From: Micromonospora sp. DSM 45708
GTDB taxonomy: Bacteria > Actinomycetota > Actinomycetes > Mycobacteriales > Micromonosporaceae
DNA length: 64,000 nt
Assembly (NCBI RefSeq): GCF_039566955.1
Contig: NZ_CP154796.1
Location: 1,116,001-1,180,000 of the forward strand
Direction of reading: 5' to 3'
Of the stretch, positions 51,775-62,974 are shown in pieces. The notes under the pieces were generated by a model that saw only the letters and a list, made by a program, of their open reading frames with translations, was not told the DNA's origin and searched no databases. Every line of letters begins with the position of its first letter. The first letter of the stretch is position 1. The position numbers and the translations under genes are program-made.

Positions 51775-52195
<421 letters not shown>

Positions 52196-52200
52196 CCACC

Positions 52201-52230
52201 AGCTCAGAGCCGTGATCAAGGCTCTGAGCT
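52201..52230 (+). terminator. rnpB terminator hairpin
   Basis: AGCTCAGAGCC (52201-52211) and GGCTCTGAGCT (52220-52230) form a perfect 11-bp stem with an 8-base loop, five bases after the RNase P RNA, followed by a T/G-rich stretch. Confidence 0.85.
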
Positions 52231-53522: not shown

Positions 53523-55943
53523 TCAGGTAATGGAGTCACTCTTGCCAGCTTTGGATGCGTGAACGTGCTGGATGCTAGTCGAATTTGCAGGGTCCGCCGA
53601 TCGAACCGGGTAGTCTCGCCATAAACGAGAGAATGGCGAATCGCTCTCCGAGATAAACCGCAGCACCTCATTCGGTTCCGCAAAACGTGCGGCTGGCATA
53701 ATGTGCTGCGAATAAGTAAGGGAAGGCAGGTCCAGCCAGCTGAAGCGTGACGGGCGGTGGAAAGCAAACTCCCTGCCCCTCCCGTCCACAAACAAGATTT
53801 CCTGACGGCTTGCGTCATCTACGGTTGCCTTGACCCGCCGAAATACGTGGCGACAGAATCCCGCGTCTTCTATCCAGGTAACGGCGTCACGGATTGCATC
53901 AACAGCACGCTTCAGCATTTCGACATCAGGAGTGCTCGATCTCCCGTGGGCCCATTCGTTCCGGGCCTCGTGTGCCTCGGCGCTTACTAAGCGCTGGCTA
54001 ATTTCCTTTAGCTGTCGAACGACAAACGACCTGCTATCAGGTAGGAGGTTCAGGAAAGGCAACGTTGACCTAAAGGCGAAAGCCTGAAGTTCCTGCTTAA
54101 GTACCCACTTGGGGATTCCTGTGTCGGGCCGCTCGAAATCGCTAGCTGATCCCTCTTGCTCTGCGAGCCAATCGCCGAGGATCTGGAAACCGCGTGTTAG
54201 AGCGTACAGGTCTGGCTTTTCGTTGAAACGAACGGCATAGTCGCCATCCTGTCGGTTGCCCTTACCCAGGTCGTCCAGCTTAAGCCTTGCCCCTTCCTCA
54301 TCTACGTGCGGCCGATATATGAAAGGTCGGGGGCTGGAAGAGTGATCTGTCGTCAGTGCCCACGTCGTGTAGTAAAGAGACTCTCGGAGTACCGACTCAA
54401 GTTGAGGGAAATAGGAACCGGTATTTCCGCGGATGCGATCTATGTCGCGAGAAGTCATCGTTGGCGGTGCCTGTCTAACCGCCTGAGTAAGCCTTTCGTG
54501 CAGCAGCCAGAATTCTTTATGCGGATCTAGGAGGTCTTCAACAGAGAATCCCAGTTTCCACATTACGGCGTTTACGCGCTCTTCGTCAGTCGACAAAATC
54601 TCTTCTGCCAGGCTTAGTTTGGACGCAGCGACTATGAAATTGCTCCTGCGCGCAAGCAGCAGTGATGAGACCACCTCGCGCGGCTCTCCTCGCTGCAAAT
54701 AGTGTTCGATTTTAGCTTCAAGGCTTGGCCCCTCCTCGCTTCGAAGCTGCCACTCGAGATCGGTCCGGTCGCCTTCGTCATCCATTCGGTACATCTGCCC
54801 GACCAGGCGCCGCAAGCGCATAAGGGCTAAGGGCAAGGAACTGGATCGAATCCTAACCCCGAACCTCCCCAGCTCGGGCTGCAAATCGTACGCACCCATC
54901 TCCTCGTCCTCATTAACGACAGGACGGCGAACTTCGCCGAGCGGTACGGGGATGGTGCCATCCATGACAAGACTATCGAGAGCAGCGAAGATTGCCTGGT
55001 TCGATGCCGTTAGCGTCAACTGAAGCAACTCGGCTACGTTTAAGTCTGCGACCATGCGCGCCGCAGGTCCGCCCTTGATGCCTACTGCGGAGGCAGCTTG
55101 TCGAACCGAATTCTTCGTGTTGTCGAGCAGCCATTCCAGCAGACGGCGCATCTCTTCGATTGTGAGCGAATCGCCAATTAGATAGGCGACGCAGTCTCCC
55201 GAAAGGTCGTCGTAGACGTTTTGGGGAGTTAGATCGATTCTATTAAAAAATTCTTTCCAGTCGCAGCGGTTCTTGGTCTCTTTGTCGAAAATTTTCTCAG
55301 CGATGGAGCGGCTTTCGTTAATTTGGGCAGCCTGATCCGAGACGAGGGATCTGTAGTGAGTGCTTGTGCATCGAGCGTCTGAGCAATGGAAAGGAATGGA
55401 CCGATCAGGCGGGAGCACGCGCCGATGGGAGGTCTCAATCAACCCAAAGGGTCCTGTAATGAAACGGCCCATCTGAAATACGCCCTGCGGTGTACCTTCC
55501 AACACCTCTAGACTTTCCTCGGCCGTCAGTACTGTTCGGTTCGCGCCAAATGGCATTGAATTAATTTTGTCGTAAAGTGTGCGCCCGTATACGTAGGGAA
55601 AAAGCAGCTCGCGCTCTCTAATTTGCCGACTGACGATTTCAACGAGCGCGGGCACGTCTGATCCTATGGCATCGATCAGCAGATCGGAGTGGAACATGTG
55701 TAGATAGCAAATGAATCGCGCCTCGGGATATTTAATGTTCTTCTTTACGAAGTTGTCCGTAACGCGCTCGCCCAATGCCGACAGTTTGACCGTCTCGTAC
55801 ATCTCCCTTGAAACTCTGTAGCTTCGCCGGATGATGCACTCGGACAGCAGTTCACGTAAATCCAACAAGCTTCGAAGTGTCGCTCGATACTCGTCGCTGC
55901 CGTAAAGATCCACTAACTCATCCACGGTCTTCGGCTCAGGCAT
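53523..55943 (-). CDS. Large protein of unknown family with HEPN-type motif
   Basis: An 806-residue cytoplasmic protein that I do not recognise. Its DNA is visibly lower in GC and uses A/T-ending codons freely, unlike all chromosomal neighbours, which indicates recent transfer. Near the C-terminus, EARNEWAHGR gives an R-x4-H motif (R661, H666) in a helical context (LKEISQRLVSAEAHEA before, VDAIRDAVTWIEDAG after), as in HEPN ribonucleases. A HCSDARCTSTH cluster (C187, C192, H196) could bind zinc. The middle is mixed helix and strand, with no Walker A box or membrane segment. It lies alone as cargo of the integrated element. A defence role is inferred from size, isolation, HEPN motif and composition only. 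Confidence 0.85.
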   Translation of the reverse strand: MPEPKTVDELVDLYGSDEYRATLRSLLDLRELLSECIIRRSYRVSREMYETVKLSALGERVTDNFVKKNIKYPEARFICYLHMFHSDLLIDAIGSDVPALVEIVSRQIRERELLFPYVYGRTLYDKINSMPFGANRTVLTAEESLEVLEGTPQGVFQMGRFITGPFGLIETSHRRVLPPDRSIPFHCSDARCTSTHYRSLVSDQAAQINESRSIAEKIFDKETKNRCDWKEFFNRIDLTPQNVYDDLSGDCVAYLIGDSLTIEEMRRLLEWLLDNTKNSVRQAASAVGIKGGPAARMVADLNVAELLQLTLTASNQAIFAALDSLVMDGTIPVPLGEVRRPVVNEDEEMGAYDLQPELGRFGVRIRSSSLPLALMRLRRLVGQMYRMDDEGDRTDLEWQLRSEEGPSLEAKIEHYLQRGEPREVVSSLLLARRSNFIVAASKLSLAEEILSTDEERVNAVMWKLGFSVEDLLDPHKEFWLLHERLTQAVRQAPPTMTSRDIDRIRGNTGSYFPQLESVLRESLYYTTWALTTDHSSSPRPFIYRPHVDEEGARLKLDDLGKGNRQDGDYAVRFNEKPDLYALTRGFQILGDWLAEQEGSASDFERPDTGIPKWVLKQELQAFAFRSTLPFLNLLPDSRSFVVRQLKEISQRLVSAEAHEARNEWAHGRSSTPDVEMLKRAVDAIRDAVTWIEDAGFCRHVFRRVKATVDDASRQEILFVDGRGREFAFHRPSRFSWLDLPSLTYSQHIMPAARFAEPNEVLRFISESDSPFSRLWRDYPVRSADPANSTSIQHVHASKAGKSDSIT

Positions 55944-57264: not shown

Positions 57265-57954
57265 CTACAGCTCGTCGACGGCGAACGCCGACACCAGCTC
57301 GGCCATGCTGTCGATGACGGCCTCTGCGGCGGCGAACCGCTCGCGCTTGCCGGGCTTGTTGGCGTACCCGATGGCGGCCACCCCGGCAGCGTGGGCGGCC
57401 TCGATGTCGGTCTCCGAGTCACCGACGAGGACGCATTCTGCCGGACTGGCGCCCAACTCGCGGACGGCTTCCCGCACCGGGAACGGGTCCGGCTTCATCC
57501 GCTCCGGTGCCGCCTCCGGTCGGCCGATGACCGGGTGTACGTAGCCGCTCAGCCGGCGGGCGCTCAGGTAGGCGTGGACGGACCCGGCTGAGTTGTTCGA
57601 GACGACGGCGACCCGACGGCCGGTCTGCTGGGCGGCGACGATGACCTCTCGGCCGTACGGCGTGGGCGTGGCGGTGCGGGCCGCGGTGACCTCCTCGCGG
57701 GTCATCGCCTGGTCGATCAGGCGGACGACGGCCGGGCGCCCAAGCGTTCCGGTGAAGCGGAGCACGGCGAGCGGGTCGCGCTCGGCCAGGATCTCGGGCG
57801 GCAGGGTCACGCCCTGGTCGACGAGCAGCCGGCGAAGTTCGTGGGCGACGGTCGGCGCGGGACGCTGGGCGAAGATGCTGCACACGGGGCCGTCGAAGTC
57901 GAGCAGGATCACTCGGGCACGGTCGATCACCTTGGCCAGGTCGGTGGCGGTCAC
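57265..57954 (-). CDS. HAD family hydrolase
   Basis: A 229-residue HAD phosphatase. Motif I is VILLDFDGPVC (nucleophile Asp), motif II is VAVVSNNSAGS, the Lys is in PERMKPDPFPV, and motif IV is CVLVGDSETDIEAAHAAG. It resembles phosphoglycolate phosphatases, with the substrate unknown. The GTG start overlaps the stop of the upstream gene (GTGA). HAD and regulator-like pairs of this sort recur in actinomycete elements as far as I recall. Confidence 0.9.
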   Translation of the reverse strand: MTATDLAKVIDRARVILLDFDGPVCSIFAQRPAPTVAHELRRLLVDQGVTLPPEILAERDPLAVLRFTGTLGRPAVVRLIDQAMTREEVTAARTATPTPYGREVIVAAQQTGRRVAVVSNNSAGSVHAYLSARRLSGYVHPVIGRPEAAPERMKPDPFPVREAVRELGASPAECVLVGDSETDIEAAHAAGVAAIGYANKPGKRERFAAAEAVIDSMAELVSAFAVDEL

Positions 57955-58379
57955 GAGGCGTACTCGCGGGCGATGGTGCCCCAGAGGCTGTCGAACCAGG
58001 CGCGGGCCTGCTCGACGTAGAGGGCGTCATTGCTGGTGTCCTCGTCGCTGGGCGTGAACGGGAAGAGGATCGCGTCCTTGCCCATCGCGTCGTAGATCGC
58101 CATCGGCTTGCCGTCCACGGAGACGGTGTGCTCGACGACGGGATAGAAACCGAAGAAGGCTTCCTGCTCGTTGATGATGAACAGCTTGAACAGGGGCGCG
58201 GCGTTGTGGACGCGTACCTCGGTGGTGGCGGTCTTGACCAACCCGAGGTCGGCAAGCTCCTGGACGGCGTCGGTGACGGCGTGGATGGACCGGTCGGTGA
58301 TCCGGCGGGCTCGGGCACGGATGCCGGGGTCGTCGGCTTGGTCCTCGGCGCGGCAGGGGATCGCCATCGGAGCGGTCAT
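57951..58379 (-). CDS. Effector-domain protein, possibly 5'-truncated regulator
   Basis: A 142-residue protein: MTAPMAIPCRAEDQADDPGI, VRVHNAAPLFKLFIINEQEA, FFGFYPVVEHTVSVDG and an end ARAWFDSLWGTIARE. The sequence before this ATG (VRVLISDM) still looks homologous, but no helix-turn-helix is found upstream, where similar proteins carry one. The frame instead runs into the start of a plus-strand gene. The coupling to a HAD hydrolase suggests a phosphate-ester or nucleotide-related role, which is unproven. Confidence 0.6.
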   Translation of the reverse strand: MTAPMAIPCRAEDQADDPGIRARARRITDRSIHAVTDAVQELADLGLVKTATTEVRVHNAAPLFKLFIINEQEAFFGFYPVVEHTVSVDGKPMAIYDAMGKDAILFPFTPSDEDTSNDALYVEQARAWFDSLWGTIAREYAS

Positions 58380-58419
58380 ATCAGAGATCAGCACGCGTAC
58401 CCCCGAACCCGTCACCGCC

Positions 58420-58611
58420 GTGTCCGTCCGCATCGACCCGCAACGACCCGACCCGTACCCGGTGTATCTCGCGGTCGGTGCCGGCCGGCGACGGATGTCC
58501 CTGACCCCCGACGAGGCGTGGGCGCTGTGGCGCTGCCTCTCCGAAGCCGTCGCCACGCTCGGCGCCCCTCCCGACTACATCCGCACCGACATCCGACCGG
58601 CCAGGAGGTAA
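58420..58611 (+). CDS. Small hypothetical protein
   Basis: A 63-residue protein from a GTG: SVRIDPQRPDPYPVYLAVGA then MSLTPDEAWALWRCLSEAVA. A short strand-helix protein, common in type to the gene strings before spdB/rep in such elements. It is followed five bases later by another small gene after a GGAGG site. The start is uncertain because its upstream region overlaps the divergent gene. Confidence 0.6.
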   Translation: MSVRIDPQRPDPYPVYLAVGAGRRRMSLTPDEAWALWRCLSEAVATLGAPPDYIRTDIRPARR

Positions 58612-58616
58612 CCGCG

Positions 58617-58808
58617 ATGACCACCCTCACCCGCATCGTCAACCGGCTCCGTCGCCCGCTGCGCATCCGCCTGGTGGGCCCGGCCGACCAGACCGCCGCC
58701 GCCCTGCACGGCCTGGCGCACATGGTCAACCGCCGCCCCGACATGGCCGACCGGCGCATCCGCATCGACCTGACCATCCGCGACAAGCCACTGGAGGAGT
58801 GGCGATGA
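58617..58808 (+). CDS. Small basic hypothetical protein
   Basis: A 63-residue, arginine-rich protein: MTTLTRIVNRLRRPLRIRLV, with AALHGLAHMVNRRPDMADRR and a strand (IRIDLTIRDKPLEEW). It has a strong AGGAGG site (58602-58607) and a stop overlapping the next ATG (ATGA), so it is in the spdB operon. The function is unknown. Confidence 0.7.
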   Translation: MTTLTRIVNRLRRPLRIRLVGPADQTAAALHGLAHMVNRRPDMADRRIRIDLTIRDKPLEEWR

Positions 58809-59350
58809 CCGAGCGCACCGAAACCGCCGTACGCCTGGTGATCCTGCTCGCCATCGCCACCATGGCCGGCGCCGCCGCCTTCACCCACGTCCACGACCTC
58901 TCCGTCGCCCACGGCCAACCCAACTGGATCGGCTGGGCCAACGCCGTAGCGGTCGAGCTGATGACGATCTACCTCGGCCTGGAACTACGCGCCCGCCGTC
59001 GCACCGGTCGACCCGTCGGCCTGGTCGGCTCGCTGCTGGTGGCGTTCGCGCTGCTGTCCCTCGCCGCCCAGGTCGCCGAAGCCCATCCATCGGTGTGGGG
59101 CTGGGTCGTGGCGGCGGTGCCGTCGCTGGCCTTCCTCGCCCTGGTCAAGGTCGTCCTGTCCAACGCCCCGATCACGCCGCCGGCTGTCGAGCCGAACCAG
59201 CCCGACGCGTACCGGTACGACGAGCCGGCGGAAGCCACCGAGGCCGAACCGGTCCGCCCGACCGTGCCAGCGTCGCCCGTCGTCCCGGCGGCACTGCCTC
59301 CGCGCGCTGTCCAGTCCAACCGGCCGCACGTCGTCGGGATCATCCGATGA
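58805..59350 (+). CDS. DUF2637/SpdB-like membrane protein
   Basis: A 181-residue protein with four transmembrane helices in the first 120 residues (LVILLAIATMAGAAAFTHV; WANAVAVELMTIYLGLEL; LVGSLLVAFALLSLAAQVAE; WVVAAVPSLAFLALV) and a Pro/Glu-rich cytoplasmic tail. FTHVHDLSVAHGQPNWIGWA is typical of DUF2637 proteins, which occur in actinomycete plasmids and resemble the plasmid-spread protein SpdB. It is the only transfer-related gene I can see in the element. Confidence 0.82.
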   Translation: MTERTETAVRLVILLAIATMAGAAAFTHVHDLSVAHGQPNWIGWANAVAVELMTIYLGLELRARRRTGRPVGLVGSLLVAFALLSLAAQVAEAHPSVWGWVVAAVPSLAFLALVKVVLSNAPITPPAVEPNQPDAYRYDEPAEATEAEPVRPTVPASPVVPAALPPRAVQSNRPHVVGIIR

Positions 59351-59822: not shown

Positions 59823-61578
59823 ATGACGGCGCCGACTCTGCCCGGCCTCGCGCCGGCCGACCCGACCCCGGCTGCTGCTCCTCGGCCGGGGTCGCGGGCG
59901 GCTCGCATGGCGCTGCCTCGTTCGGTGGACGTGCTCAAGGAGATCGCCGCCGAGTACGGCGTGTGCGTGCGTCCCCTTGCGATGCGCCGCACGGATCTCG
60001 ACACCGGCCGGACCGAGGTCATCGACCTACCCTGCGGCGCGACGCGGGAGGACAAGTGCGCGCCATGCGCGAAGAAGAACCGCCGGCTGCGGCAGGCCCA
60101 GATCCGGGAGGGCTGGCACCGCGACGACGAGCCGCTACCGCCCCCGGAGCCGGCGACCGACGAACAGTCGTCCCTGATCCTGTTCCGGGCACACCTGGAG
60201 TTCTCCCGCGACGAGGCATCCCGGGCGTGCCAGTGGGACCAGGTCGACGACCTCGACGAGGCGATCCGCGAAGTGGAAGAGGCCATCGCGGCCGAAGGGC
60301 TCCGGGGACGGGTCGCCCCTCCGCACGCCACCGGCGATGAGGACCAGGGCGACGACGACACCGGCCCGCGCCGCAAGCGCTCCACCCGGCGGCGTCAGGA
60401 CGCCCCGGAACTGCCTCGCCGCAAGGTCGAGCCGCGCACGGTCGGCAGGACGTACACCGCCCCGGACGGGGCCACCTACCGGCCGTCGATGTGGCCGACG
60501 CTCACCCTCGACTCCTACGGCCCGGTCCGCCCCGACGGCACCCCGCTCAACCCCGACCGGTACGACTACCGCCGCGCCGCGTGGGACGCCGTGCACCTCC
60601 CGCGTCTGCTCGACCGGTTCTGGCAGAACCTGCGCCGCTGTGAGGGCTGGAACGTCCAGTACGCCGGCTGCGTCGAGCCGCAACGCCGCCTCGCCCCACA
60701 CGCGCACTTCGCCATCCGGGGCACGATTCCCCGGGACATACTGCGCACCGTCGCGGCGGCGACCTATCACCAGGTGTGGTTGGCCGGCGGTCGACGTCCA
60801 GCGATACACCGTCGAGCGGCCTCCGGTGTGGGACGAGGACGCCTCGGCGTGGGTCGACCCAGACACCCGCCAGCCGCTGACCACCTGGACGGAAGCCCTC
60901 GACGGCATCGACGCCGATCCGGACGCGGAACCGGTGCACGTGGTCCGCTTCGGCGCCCAGGTCGACGCGCGCGGCGTCATGCCCGGCACCGCCGACGCGG
61001 AGCGGACCATCCGGTACGTCACGAAGTACATCACCAAGCACACCGGCGACTGCCACAAGGCGACCACCGACCGGCAGCGGGCGCACCTGGACCGGCTGTG
61101 GCGGGAACTGCGCGTGACCCCGTGCACCGACCGCTGCGCCAACTGGCTGCTCTACGGGGTCCAGCCGAAGAAGGCACACGCGAAGCTCAAGCCCGGCCGC
61201 TGCAAGGGAAAGGTCCACCAGCGCGACACCCTCGGCATCGGCGGCCGGCGCATCCTCATCTCCCGCGACTGGTCCGGCAAGACGCTCTCCGACCACAAGC
61301 ACGATGTACGGGCCTGGGTGCGGGCACTGCTCGGCGTGACTGTCGGCCTGGATGGCGTCGACGACCAGGGCGCCGCCGTCGAACCGGTCCGCCACGCCTG
61401 GGAACTGGCCCGCCCCGATGACCCGGACGTGCCGGCGATGGCTCACCGGCTGCTGCGGTCGATCAACGAACGCGCCCGCTGGCGCTCCGAACTGCTCGCC
61501 GCCAAGGACCGCGCGGCCCAGCTCCCCGCAGACGCCTCGATGACGGACGCGGACGACAAGACGGGGGAGGGGCTGTGA
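59823..61578 (+). pseudogene. RepSA-type replication initiator, frameshifted
   Basis: The replication initiator of an actinomycete integrative element, split over two frames. The first (59823-60780) has DLPCGATREDKCAPCAKKNR and the rolling-circle-type HUH strand VEPQRRLAPHAHFAIRG, then YHQVW. The second resumes with WPAVDVQRYTVERPPVWDED and includes IRYVTKYITKHTGDCHK and a C-terminal domain. One extra T at about 60780 (TGG-T-TGG) explains the break; without it the protein would be continuous at about 584 residues. It is either a real mutation, a sequencing error or a programmed shift. Downstream xis and int are intact. Confidence 0.85.
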
Positions 61579-61757
61579 TGGCCAAGGACGAGCTGTGGAC
61601 GGTTCGGGACGTGTCGGCGTATCTGCGGGTGCCGCAGGAGACGCTGTACCGCTGGCGCAAGGTCAAGTACGGTCCGCCGGCGGCCCGGGTCGGCCGACAC
61701 CTGCGCTACGAGTCCGAAGCGGTCCGGGCGTGGGTACGTGAGCAGGCGGCGGCCTGA
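61578..61757 (+). CDS. xis: Excisionase-type helix-turn-helix protein
   Basis: A 59-residue protein, MAKDELWTVRDVSAYLRVPQ then TLYRWRKVKYGPPAARVGRH and RYESEAVRAWVREQ. This winged-helix form is typical of excisionases of actinomycete elements. The ATG overlaps the rep stop (TGATG), and its own stop overlaps the integrase ATG. It is expected to bend att DNA and steer the integrase towards excision. Confidence 0.88.
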   Translation: MAKDELWTVRDVSAYLRVPQETLYRWRKVKYGPPAARVGRHLRYESEAVRAWVREQAAA

Positions 61758-62974
61758 TGGGGCACGTCGAGGATCGCTGGTACAAGACGCTGCATCACCC
61801 GGGCGGGCGGAAGGAGCGGGTCAAGACGCAACTGTTCGGCAAAGGGCTGCGCTACCGGGTGCGGTACATCGGGCCGGACGGCAAGGAGCGTAAGAAGTCC
61901 TTCCCGGACCGGGCCAAGCGCGAGGCTGAGGCGTTCATGGTCTCAACCGAGACGGACAAGCTCCGGGGCTCCTACGTCGATCCGCTGGCCGGCCGGATGA
62001 CGTTCGCCGAGTACGCCGAGACCTGGCTGCGTACCCGGTCCTTCGACGAGTCGACGCGGGAGGTCACCGAGCATCGGGTACGCAAGCACCTGCTGCCGTT
62101 CTTCGGCTCTCGGCAACTGGCGGCGATCAAGCCGGGCAACATCCGGGAGTGGGACGCCGCGTTGGTCGGCAAGCTGGCCCCGGCGACCCGGGCCGTGATC
62201 TTCGCGCACCTGCGGACCATCCTCGGCGCGGCCGTCGACGACCAACGCATCGCGAAGAACCCGTGTTCGGCAAAGTCGGTCACCGCGCCGCGCCCGGTGC
62301 AGCGTCGGGTGGTGCCGCTGCGCTACGACCAGGTTTCGGCAATCCGCGGTGGCCTCGCCCAGCGGTACCGGGCGATGGTCGACCTGGGCGCCGGCTGCGG
62401 TCTGCGGCAGGGCGAAATCCTCGGGCTCGGCGTCGACGACATCGACCTCGACGCCGGATGGGTGCACATCGTCCGGCAAGTCAAGCTCGTCCGCTCCCGG
62501 CTCGTCTTCGGCCTGCCCAAGAACGACCGGGACCGCCGGATACCGCTGCCCGACTCCGTCGCCCTGGTGCTGCGCCAGCACATCGACGACTTCCTGCCTG
62601 TGTCGCTCACCCTGCCGTGGGAGAACCCGGCCGACGAGGAGCGGGTGACGGTGCCGCTGCTGTTCACCACCACCCGGCGGGGTGCGATCAACCGCCACAC
62701 CTTCGACGACAAGAGCTGGCGTCCCGCCGTACGCGCGGCCGGCATCACGCCGACCCGGGCCACCGGGATGCACGCGCTGCGCCACTTCTACGCTTCGTCG
62801 CTGCTCGACGCAGGGGAGAGCATCAAGGCCCTGGCGTCGTACCTCGGCCACGCCGACCCCGGCTTCACGCTCCGGGTCTACACGCACCTGATGCCGGCCA
62901 GCGAGGAACGCACCCGGCAGGCCATCGACCGCCTGTTCGAGCCTGGGTCCGGAGATGCGGGATCGCCATCGTGA
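61757..62974 (+). CDS. int: Tyrosine recombinase (integrase)
   Basis: A 405-residue site-specific recombinase. The N-terminal arm-binding domain (RYRVRYIGPDGKERKKSFP) is followed by the SAM-like core-binding domain (TFAEYAETWLRTRSF). The catalytic domain has the first Arg in GAGCGLRQGEILGL, H-x2-R in MHALRHFYASSLL, H in LGHADPGF and the nucleophile Tyr in LRVYTHLMP. All catalytic residues are present, so it should be active. It ends about 170 bases before the next chromosomal-type gene; that gap should contain one att site. Confidence 0.95.
   Translation: MGHVEDRWYKTLHHPGGRKERVKTQLFGKGLRYRVRYIGPDGKERKKSFPDRAKREAEAFMVSTETDKLRGSYVDPLAGRMTFAEYAETWLRTRSFDESTREVTEHRVRKHLLPFFGSRQLAAIKPGNIREWDAALVGKLAPATRAVIFAHLRTILGAAVDDQRIAKNPCSAKSVTAPRPVQRRVVPLRYDQVSAIRGGLAQRYRAMVDLGAGCGLRQGEILGLGVDDIDLDAGWVHIVRQVKLVRSRLVFGLPKNDRDRRIPLPDSVALVLRQHIDDFLPVSLTLPWENPADEERVTVPLLFTTTRRGAINRHTFDDKSWRPAVRAAGITPTRATGMHALRHFYASSLLDAGESIKALASYLGHADPGFTLRVYTHLMPASEERTRQAIDRLFEPGSGDAGSPS

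Follow-up and report, generated by a model that had tools for sequence, protein, structure and literature searches.

What might a large gene of an unnamed family be doing in an element that has integrated at the end of the gene for ribonuclease (RNase) P RNA? The question is raised by P0001, an 806-residue protein encoded in a 12.3-kb integrated element on a 64,000-nucleotide stretch of the genome of Micromonospora sp. DSM 45708 (contig NZ_CP154796.1, positions 1,116,001 to 1,180,000; hereafter the window). The answer favoured here, with a probability of roughly 0.55, is that P0001 is a single-protein sensor-effector RNase of the HEPN type, carried as solitary cargo, that would stop phage or kill the infected cell. 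As to its parts, that P0001 is an HEPN-type RNase is likely, and that it functions in defence against phages or other elements is probable to a lesser degree.

The open reading frame (ORF) of P0001 is intact, begins with ATG and has a single match in its own genome, at its own locus. A protein search with P0001 returned 59 rows, the query included, to which a profile search of the family added two partial proteins and a search with residues 498-786 three further members, so that the word ‘orphan’, applied to P0001 in an earlier interpretation made by a model from the letters alone (the sequence-only reading), was mistaken. The relatives are annotated as ‘hypothetical protein’ or ‘uncharacterized protein’ and nothing else, their named sources are all actinobacteria (Micromonosporaceae genera, Streptomyces, Saccharothrix and Jiangella), and the family, although unnamed, is conserved over its full length. 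A search for residues 498-786 on other architectures, among candidates 0.55 to 1.75 times its length, found only the family itself. Nor does any of the titles and abstract openings listed in searches of the literature on HEPN, phage defence, actinobacteria or Streptomyces, and actinomycete integrative and conjugative elements (AICEs) name such a family, subscription papers lying outside the scope of that survey.

It is the conservation of one short motif that carries the sequence evidence for HEPN. In a 57-row alignment (A1), R661 and H666 are present in every row and N662 in 54, positions 663-665 being variable; P0001 contains eight R-x4-6-H strings, of which RNEWAH alone has both residues in 57/57, the remaining seven having them in 2 to 29 of the 57 homologues. 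Among 69 distinct sequences spanning both sites (75 gathered, minus two partial proteins that do not span both and four loci that copy database proteins with 100% identity over the aligned part), 68 keep both residues; these 69 rows include L011, a 99.5% near-copy of P0032, and a 216-residue piece of a split copy. The latter, at L021:7665-10165 in genome G290, is distributed over two frames, with RNGLDH and the zinc-like cluster described below still legible in separate pieces. According to the accessible part of a survey of the superfamily (PMC3710099), HEPN RNases are metal-independent, usually dimeric and recognizable by a conserved Rx4-6H with a polar residue (N, D or H) after the arginine, and this motif is what the P0001 family displays.

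Where does the motif lie in the protein? The AlphaFold2 model of P0001 is confident (mean predicted local distance difference test score, pLDDT, 89.6) and places helices at residues 498-531, 545-562, 579-598, 635-654, 657-666 and 674-694. The motif ends helix 657-666 and is followed by a loop and then by helix 674-694, an arrangement that recurs in a separate model of residues 469-786; the helical surroundings that the sequence-only reading had ascribed to RNEWAH are thus seen in both models. By our reading the motif helix would correspond to ‘helix 3’ of HEPN domains, and E516, invariant in the long helix 498-531, would be the counterpart of the conserved acid of an earlier helix; K or R follows it at +4 in four of nine rows of alignment A3, the acid of HEPN helix 2 being typically Ex3[KR]. 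The likeness described for the superfamily in that part of PMC3710099 extends to an R-[polar]-x3-H that ends one helix before the next; the P0001 region differs in its length, about 200 versus 100-120 residues, and in the long interval that separates helix 498-531 from the motif helix. H534, in the invariant pair D533-H534, is a possible second active-site histidine; in HEPN families such as AbiV the motif histidine is absent and another conserved histidine stands ahead of it (PMC3710099, as far as the accessible text goes). A natural variant at L019:8977-11457 has Y in place of both H666 and R781 and retains E516 and D533-H534.

How does such a gene travel? As the sequence-only reading had proposed, it lies within an integrated element: the 12.3 kb are bounded by copies of a 55-nt direct repeat (54/55 identical) and also contain a tyrosine integrase and RepSA, and in the relative G661 the site is empty, the right flank coming directly after the repeat at the 3' end of a complete rnpB, the gene for RNase P RNA. 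The element has two hallmarks of an AICE, a site-specific integrase and a RepSA-type initiator, the latter frame-broken. Twelve neighbourhoods of the family were assembled (the window, L009, L010, L011, L012, L016, L017, L019, L020, L021, L045 and L046), with Pfam-scanned neighbours ranging from none (L021) and two (L010, L045, L046) to as many as ten (L009, L016). RepSA and integrase-type genes occur among these neighbours in the window and in L009, on a contig of Micromonospora endolithica JCM 12677, and nowhere else. Because backbone-type genes are shared (the HAD and GntR pair of the window by L016, a NUDIX gene by L019 and L020, with an FtsK gene in L019), the copies in L016, L019 and L020 are probably also in AICE-type elements; the L011 copy adjoins resolvase and transposase genes. 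Among 112 neighbours, a selection of the ORFs around the window, L009-L012, L016, L017 and L019-L021 (L045 and L046 stood outside this comparison), no gene turns up repeatedly as a partner, and members of the family accordingly seem to work by themselves, as solitary accessory genes; the few matches between loci resemble backbone genes of elements, NUDIX genes, regulators or unassigned small proteins.

The family is rare. Whole-genome occurrence was 5/354 in the host's family and 4/348 in its order, the host being counted in both and one non-host genome, G698, being common to the two; it was 2/394 in the family of G023 (probably Streptomycetaceae) and 2/396 in the phylum, the last with a single query sequence and the host counted. 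A first scan of genome contigs with one protein gave no relative, nor did IMG/VR (two short patterns), phage records or plasmid records. In a quick tree of 33 rows, some with long branches, the Micromonospora copies do not form one clade (approximately unbiased test, p-AU 4.5e-5), and the 12 named Streptomyces copies do, with L019 and L020 falling outside it even though their hosts probably belong to the same family as those of the Streptomyces copies. Transfer between genera is the simplest reading of such a tree. The lower GC content claimed in the sequence-only reading is real (0.542, and 0.60 at third codon positions, GC3, against flanks of 0.705 and 0.693), yet the foreign origin that it was taken to indicate is not established by it: genes at 10/10 family loci have a GC of 0.52-0.56 within flanks of 0.64-0.73, the L045 copy is likewise low (GC3 0.50), and L046 is the exception (GC3 0.81). 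A recent foreign origin argued from GC alone was therefore rejected, low GC being mostly a trait of the family and no proof by itself.

Would an RNase carried in this way serve the host, or the element? The strongest rival, though an unlikely one, holds that P0001 is an HEPN RNase in the service of the element, acting in exclusion of rival elements or in a toxin-like maintenance restrained within the same protein. The AICE-type elements in the window and L009 and the probable ones at L016, L019 and L020 would all accommodate it, as would the lack of a conserved adjacent antitoxin among the compared neighbours. L010, L012, L017, L045 and L046, on the other hand, have no element genes among their Pfam-scanned neighbours, a hint that the gene can be maintained without an element, the argument being a weak one with two to four neighbours at each locus.

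Several results weigh against the answer given at the outset. As regards defence, P0001 matched no family of PADLOC-DB 2.0.0 (2023) at an E value of 10 or less, and the tally of defence genes around homologues, from which the sequence-only reading had expected support, found no consistent defence neighbours among the 112 at ten loci. Models of 26 PADLOC families (25 displayed) did match some of these neighbours at E 1e-5. Of the 112, 20 were rescanned singly, and three of these gave matches: in L017 an adjacent HNH protein, and near L020 and L021 respectively a TPR-bearing regulator and an IetA/DolB-like protein. The remaining matches, such as mad3, mad8, SspH, AriA, PDC-S03 and PDC-S07, have no locus assigned to them, and individual copies of the family may therefore have defence genes nearby. 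As regards the motif, the sole exception among the 69 sequences, L019, reads RNQLQY. As regards the domain, the Pfam HEPN_Swt1 match (PF18731), at residues 643-688, has an E value of 0.024 and, at 15.3 bits, falls short of the cut-off of 27.5, and only two of 57 family members match at E 0.1. Foldseek searches with the full model against PDB and a viral library, and with residues 469-786 against PDB, gave nothing at E <=0.001, HEPN structures appearing at noise level, no higher than unrelated helical bundles. The motif's place at a helix end fits the C-terminal four-helix HEPN bundle anticipated by the sequence-only reading, for which no significant fold match was obtained; equally, the predicted structure matched no known protein in these libraries at E <=0.001.

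Thirteen Swt1-type HEPN domains, taken from genomes of the host's class, were also combined into a profile. Against residues 498-700 this profile scored 33.1 (single-pair P 7.5e-5, probability 62), and the alignment, which spans 34 columns, brings R-N-x3-H into register; P was 0.1 or worse for reversed alignments and for three other regions, and none of 200 column shuffles reached 33 (maximum 20.4). The expected extension of this likeness over the whole domain was, however, not borne out: with R, N and H masked the score fell to 18.1, elsewhere in the domain, and with block 655-669 kept and the rest shuffled 33 was still reached in 37 of 100 trials, which again tells against the assignment. 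The sequence evidence for HEPN is therefore the motif block itself, and the rest of the case is the motif's place in the predicted structure together with E516. This leaves some room for a second rival, slightly less probable than the element-serving one, in which P0001 is no HEPN protein and another helical fold with a different activity, for example the binding of nucleotides or nucleic acids, accounts for the invariant R-x4-H and the cluster. It draws on the confinement of profile similarity to the motif block, on fold searches without an HEPN match above noise and on the 28 invariant columns of the alignment, in which R and H are not alone. R-N-x3-H with variable spacers, placed at a helix end and preceded in an earlier helix by an invariant acid, nevertheless fits the published HEPN signature. 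Least probable of the three is that P0001 is an HEPN enzyme outside defence, engaged in conditional processing of RNA or in the host's stress response. In its favour are the precedent of RNA-processing HEPN proteins such as Las1 (in the accessible part of PMC3710099) and the lack of a visible defence partner, whereas rarity in the genomes searched, a distribution that does not track host genera and low GC at nearly every locus examined are unlike a housekeeping enzyme.

Other candidates led nowhere. VIA-align rows were rejected as relatives, being largely G-protein-coupled receptors, designed bundles and other unrelated helical proteins; NCBIfam on the 57 members gave weak matches only, such as beta-lactamase models in at most five (best E 0.00099), which were taken as chance; and PDB sequence searches with P0001 matched only at E 0.4 or worse. 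The ApeA-type HEPN domain (PF18739), ApeA being a defence protein, has no Pfam match to P0001 at E 1, and its motif registers with that of P0001 in hhalign without significance (P 0.073, four-domain profile). The best-scoring family is the Swt1-like HEPN; 12 of its 13 proteins over the cut-off lie in open frames of 1,110-2,167 residues, and one in a frame of 197.

How, then, would a defensive P0001 work? In the favoured reading, residues of about 498-695 would form a metal-independent RNase using R661, N662 and H666, perhaps joined in the active site by E516 and D533-H534, and the N-terminal and middle part (about 1-470) together with the C-terminal beta region would hold it silent. These regions would detect a component of the invader and release the RNase, and the activated protein would cut RNA, so that phage growth is stopped or the infected cell killed; the gene itself would spread as a solitary accessory gene, here as AICE-type cargo. 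The string HCSDARCTSTH at residues 186-196, noticed in the sequence-only reading as a possible zinc cluster, is indeed conserved (C187, C192 and H196 in 57/57, H186 in 55/57), and these four residues may bind metal; the front part that contains them would be the sensor and the lock. The best-supported model combines sensor and RNase in one protein, as Tha and DS-11 do. Tha, as described in the available part of PMC11087260, is likewise a single protein of a mobile element (a prophage) with a C-terminal HEPN motif, RNSIMH, whose histidine is required for anti-phage defence; it differs in its 301 residues and its Staphylococcus host, and is likened to P0001 by description. DS-11 (CBS-HEPN; PMC13092281, again in part) likewise defends with one HEPN protein, whose RNase is presumed to be under the control of a separate domain, as proposed here, but that domain is a CBS sensor and P0001 has no CBS match in the Pfam scan. 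P0001 is in this sense a new architecture of a known HEPN-effector kind. Of the undescribed HEPN defence system put forward in the sequence-only reading, the conserved helix-end motif and the lack of a match to any named family held up; the profile and fold matches fell short of significance, and defence itself stays an inference, though a probable one.

Features of the P0001 gene and of the element that carries it (window positions)
Feature	Position	Strand	Evidence or remark
P0001, 806 residues, candidate single-protein HEPN-type effector	53523..55943	-	ORF, homologues, AlphaFold2 model (pLDDT 89.6)
Putative zinc cluster H186-C187-x4-C192-x3-H196	55356..55388	-	conservation
Putative HEPN domain, about residues 498-695	53859..54452	-	model helices; weak Pfam HEPN_Swt1 match
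E516, invariant acid in long helix 498-531	54396..54398	-	57/57, and E in every covering row displayed
D533-H534, invariant	54342..54347	-	57/57; retained in L019
RNxxxH motif R661-N662-x3-H666	53946..53963	-	conservation
C-terminal beta region, residues 700-765, five strands	53649..53846	-	secondary structure of models
rnpB (RNase P RNA gene), integration target	51783..52191	+	Rfam RF00010, 277.3 bits
attL-like 55-nt direct repeat overlapping rnpB 3' end	52162..52216	+	partner at window-equivalent 64467-64521, outside the window
Backbone pair: HAD hydrolase (57265-57954) and GntR regulator relative (57951-58556)	57265..58556	-	Pfam, L016 comparison
RepSA (pSAM2-type replication initiator), split in two frames	59823..61578	+	RepSA profile
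Tyrosine integrase	61757..62974	+	PF00589 E 1e-20, PF14659 E 3.6e-10

In the element itself, RepSA profile positions 2-232 fall in the piece 59823-60800 and positions 236-437 in the frame 60337-61578, so the replication gene looks broken, unless the assembly is in error. No FtsK/SpoIIIE-type transfer gene was found among the window proteins scanned, some element ORFs, including 58799-59350, lying outside that scan. The HAD hydrolase (HAD_2, E 1.3e-16) and the GntR-related protein, which has no Pfam match above cut-off, are 56% and 57% identical to the L016 pair. A tRNA attachment site was considered and set aside, no tRNA having been found (L022) and the repeat lying at the rnpB 3' end. Integration at a tRNA 3' end is usual for AICEs with tyrosine integrases, not defining, in the portion of the AICE survey PMC3218068 consulted, and rnpB and RNase P do not occur in its main text, as far as that portion shows; titles and abstract openings of the rnpB literature found likewise contain no report of rnpB as an integration site for elements. 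At least two same-strand copies of the repeat, full or partial, within 60 kb are present in 26 of 61 genomes of the genus (the host and short partial copies are included in the count, and no more than nine candidates were scored in any one genome), for which reason Micromonospora seems to have an integration hotspot at the 3' end of rnpB. At another locus, L017:7890-9680, an HNH_2 endonuclease gene stands close beside the family member; the L017 protein equals P0003 of Solwaraspora.

What does all this mean for the family? In its fullest form, which we hold tentatively and at somewhat less than even odds, the proposal is that these proteins are undescribed actinobacterial single-protein immune receptors, in which a zinc-bearing N-terminal module of ~470 residues would sense a component of a phage or element and switch on a built-in RNxxxH HEPN RNase, and which would have spread among Micromonosporaceae, Streptomyces, Saccharothrix and Jiangella on AICEs that target rnpB as well as by other routes. 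The putative catalytic pair of the family is open to test, a partner gene is not evident, and natural variants exist, one of them with the motif histidine replaced; the function of P0001 could be examined in a laboratory Streptomyces that has received this single gene.
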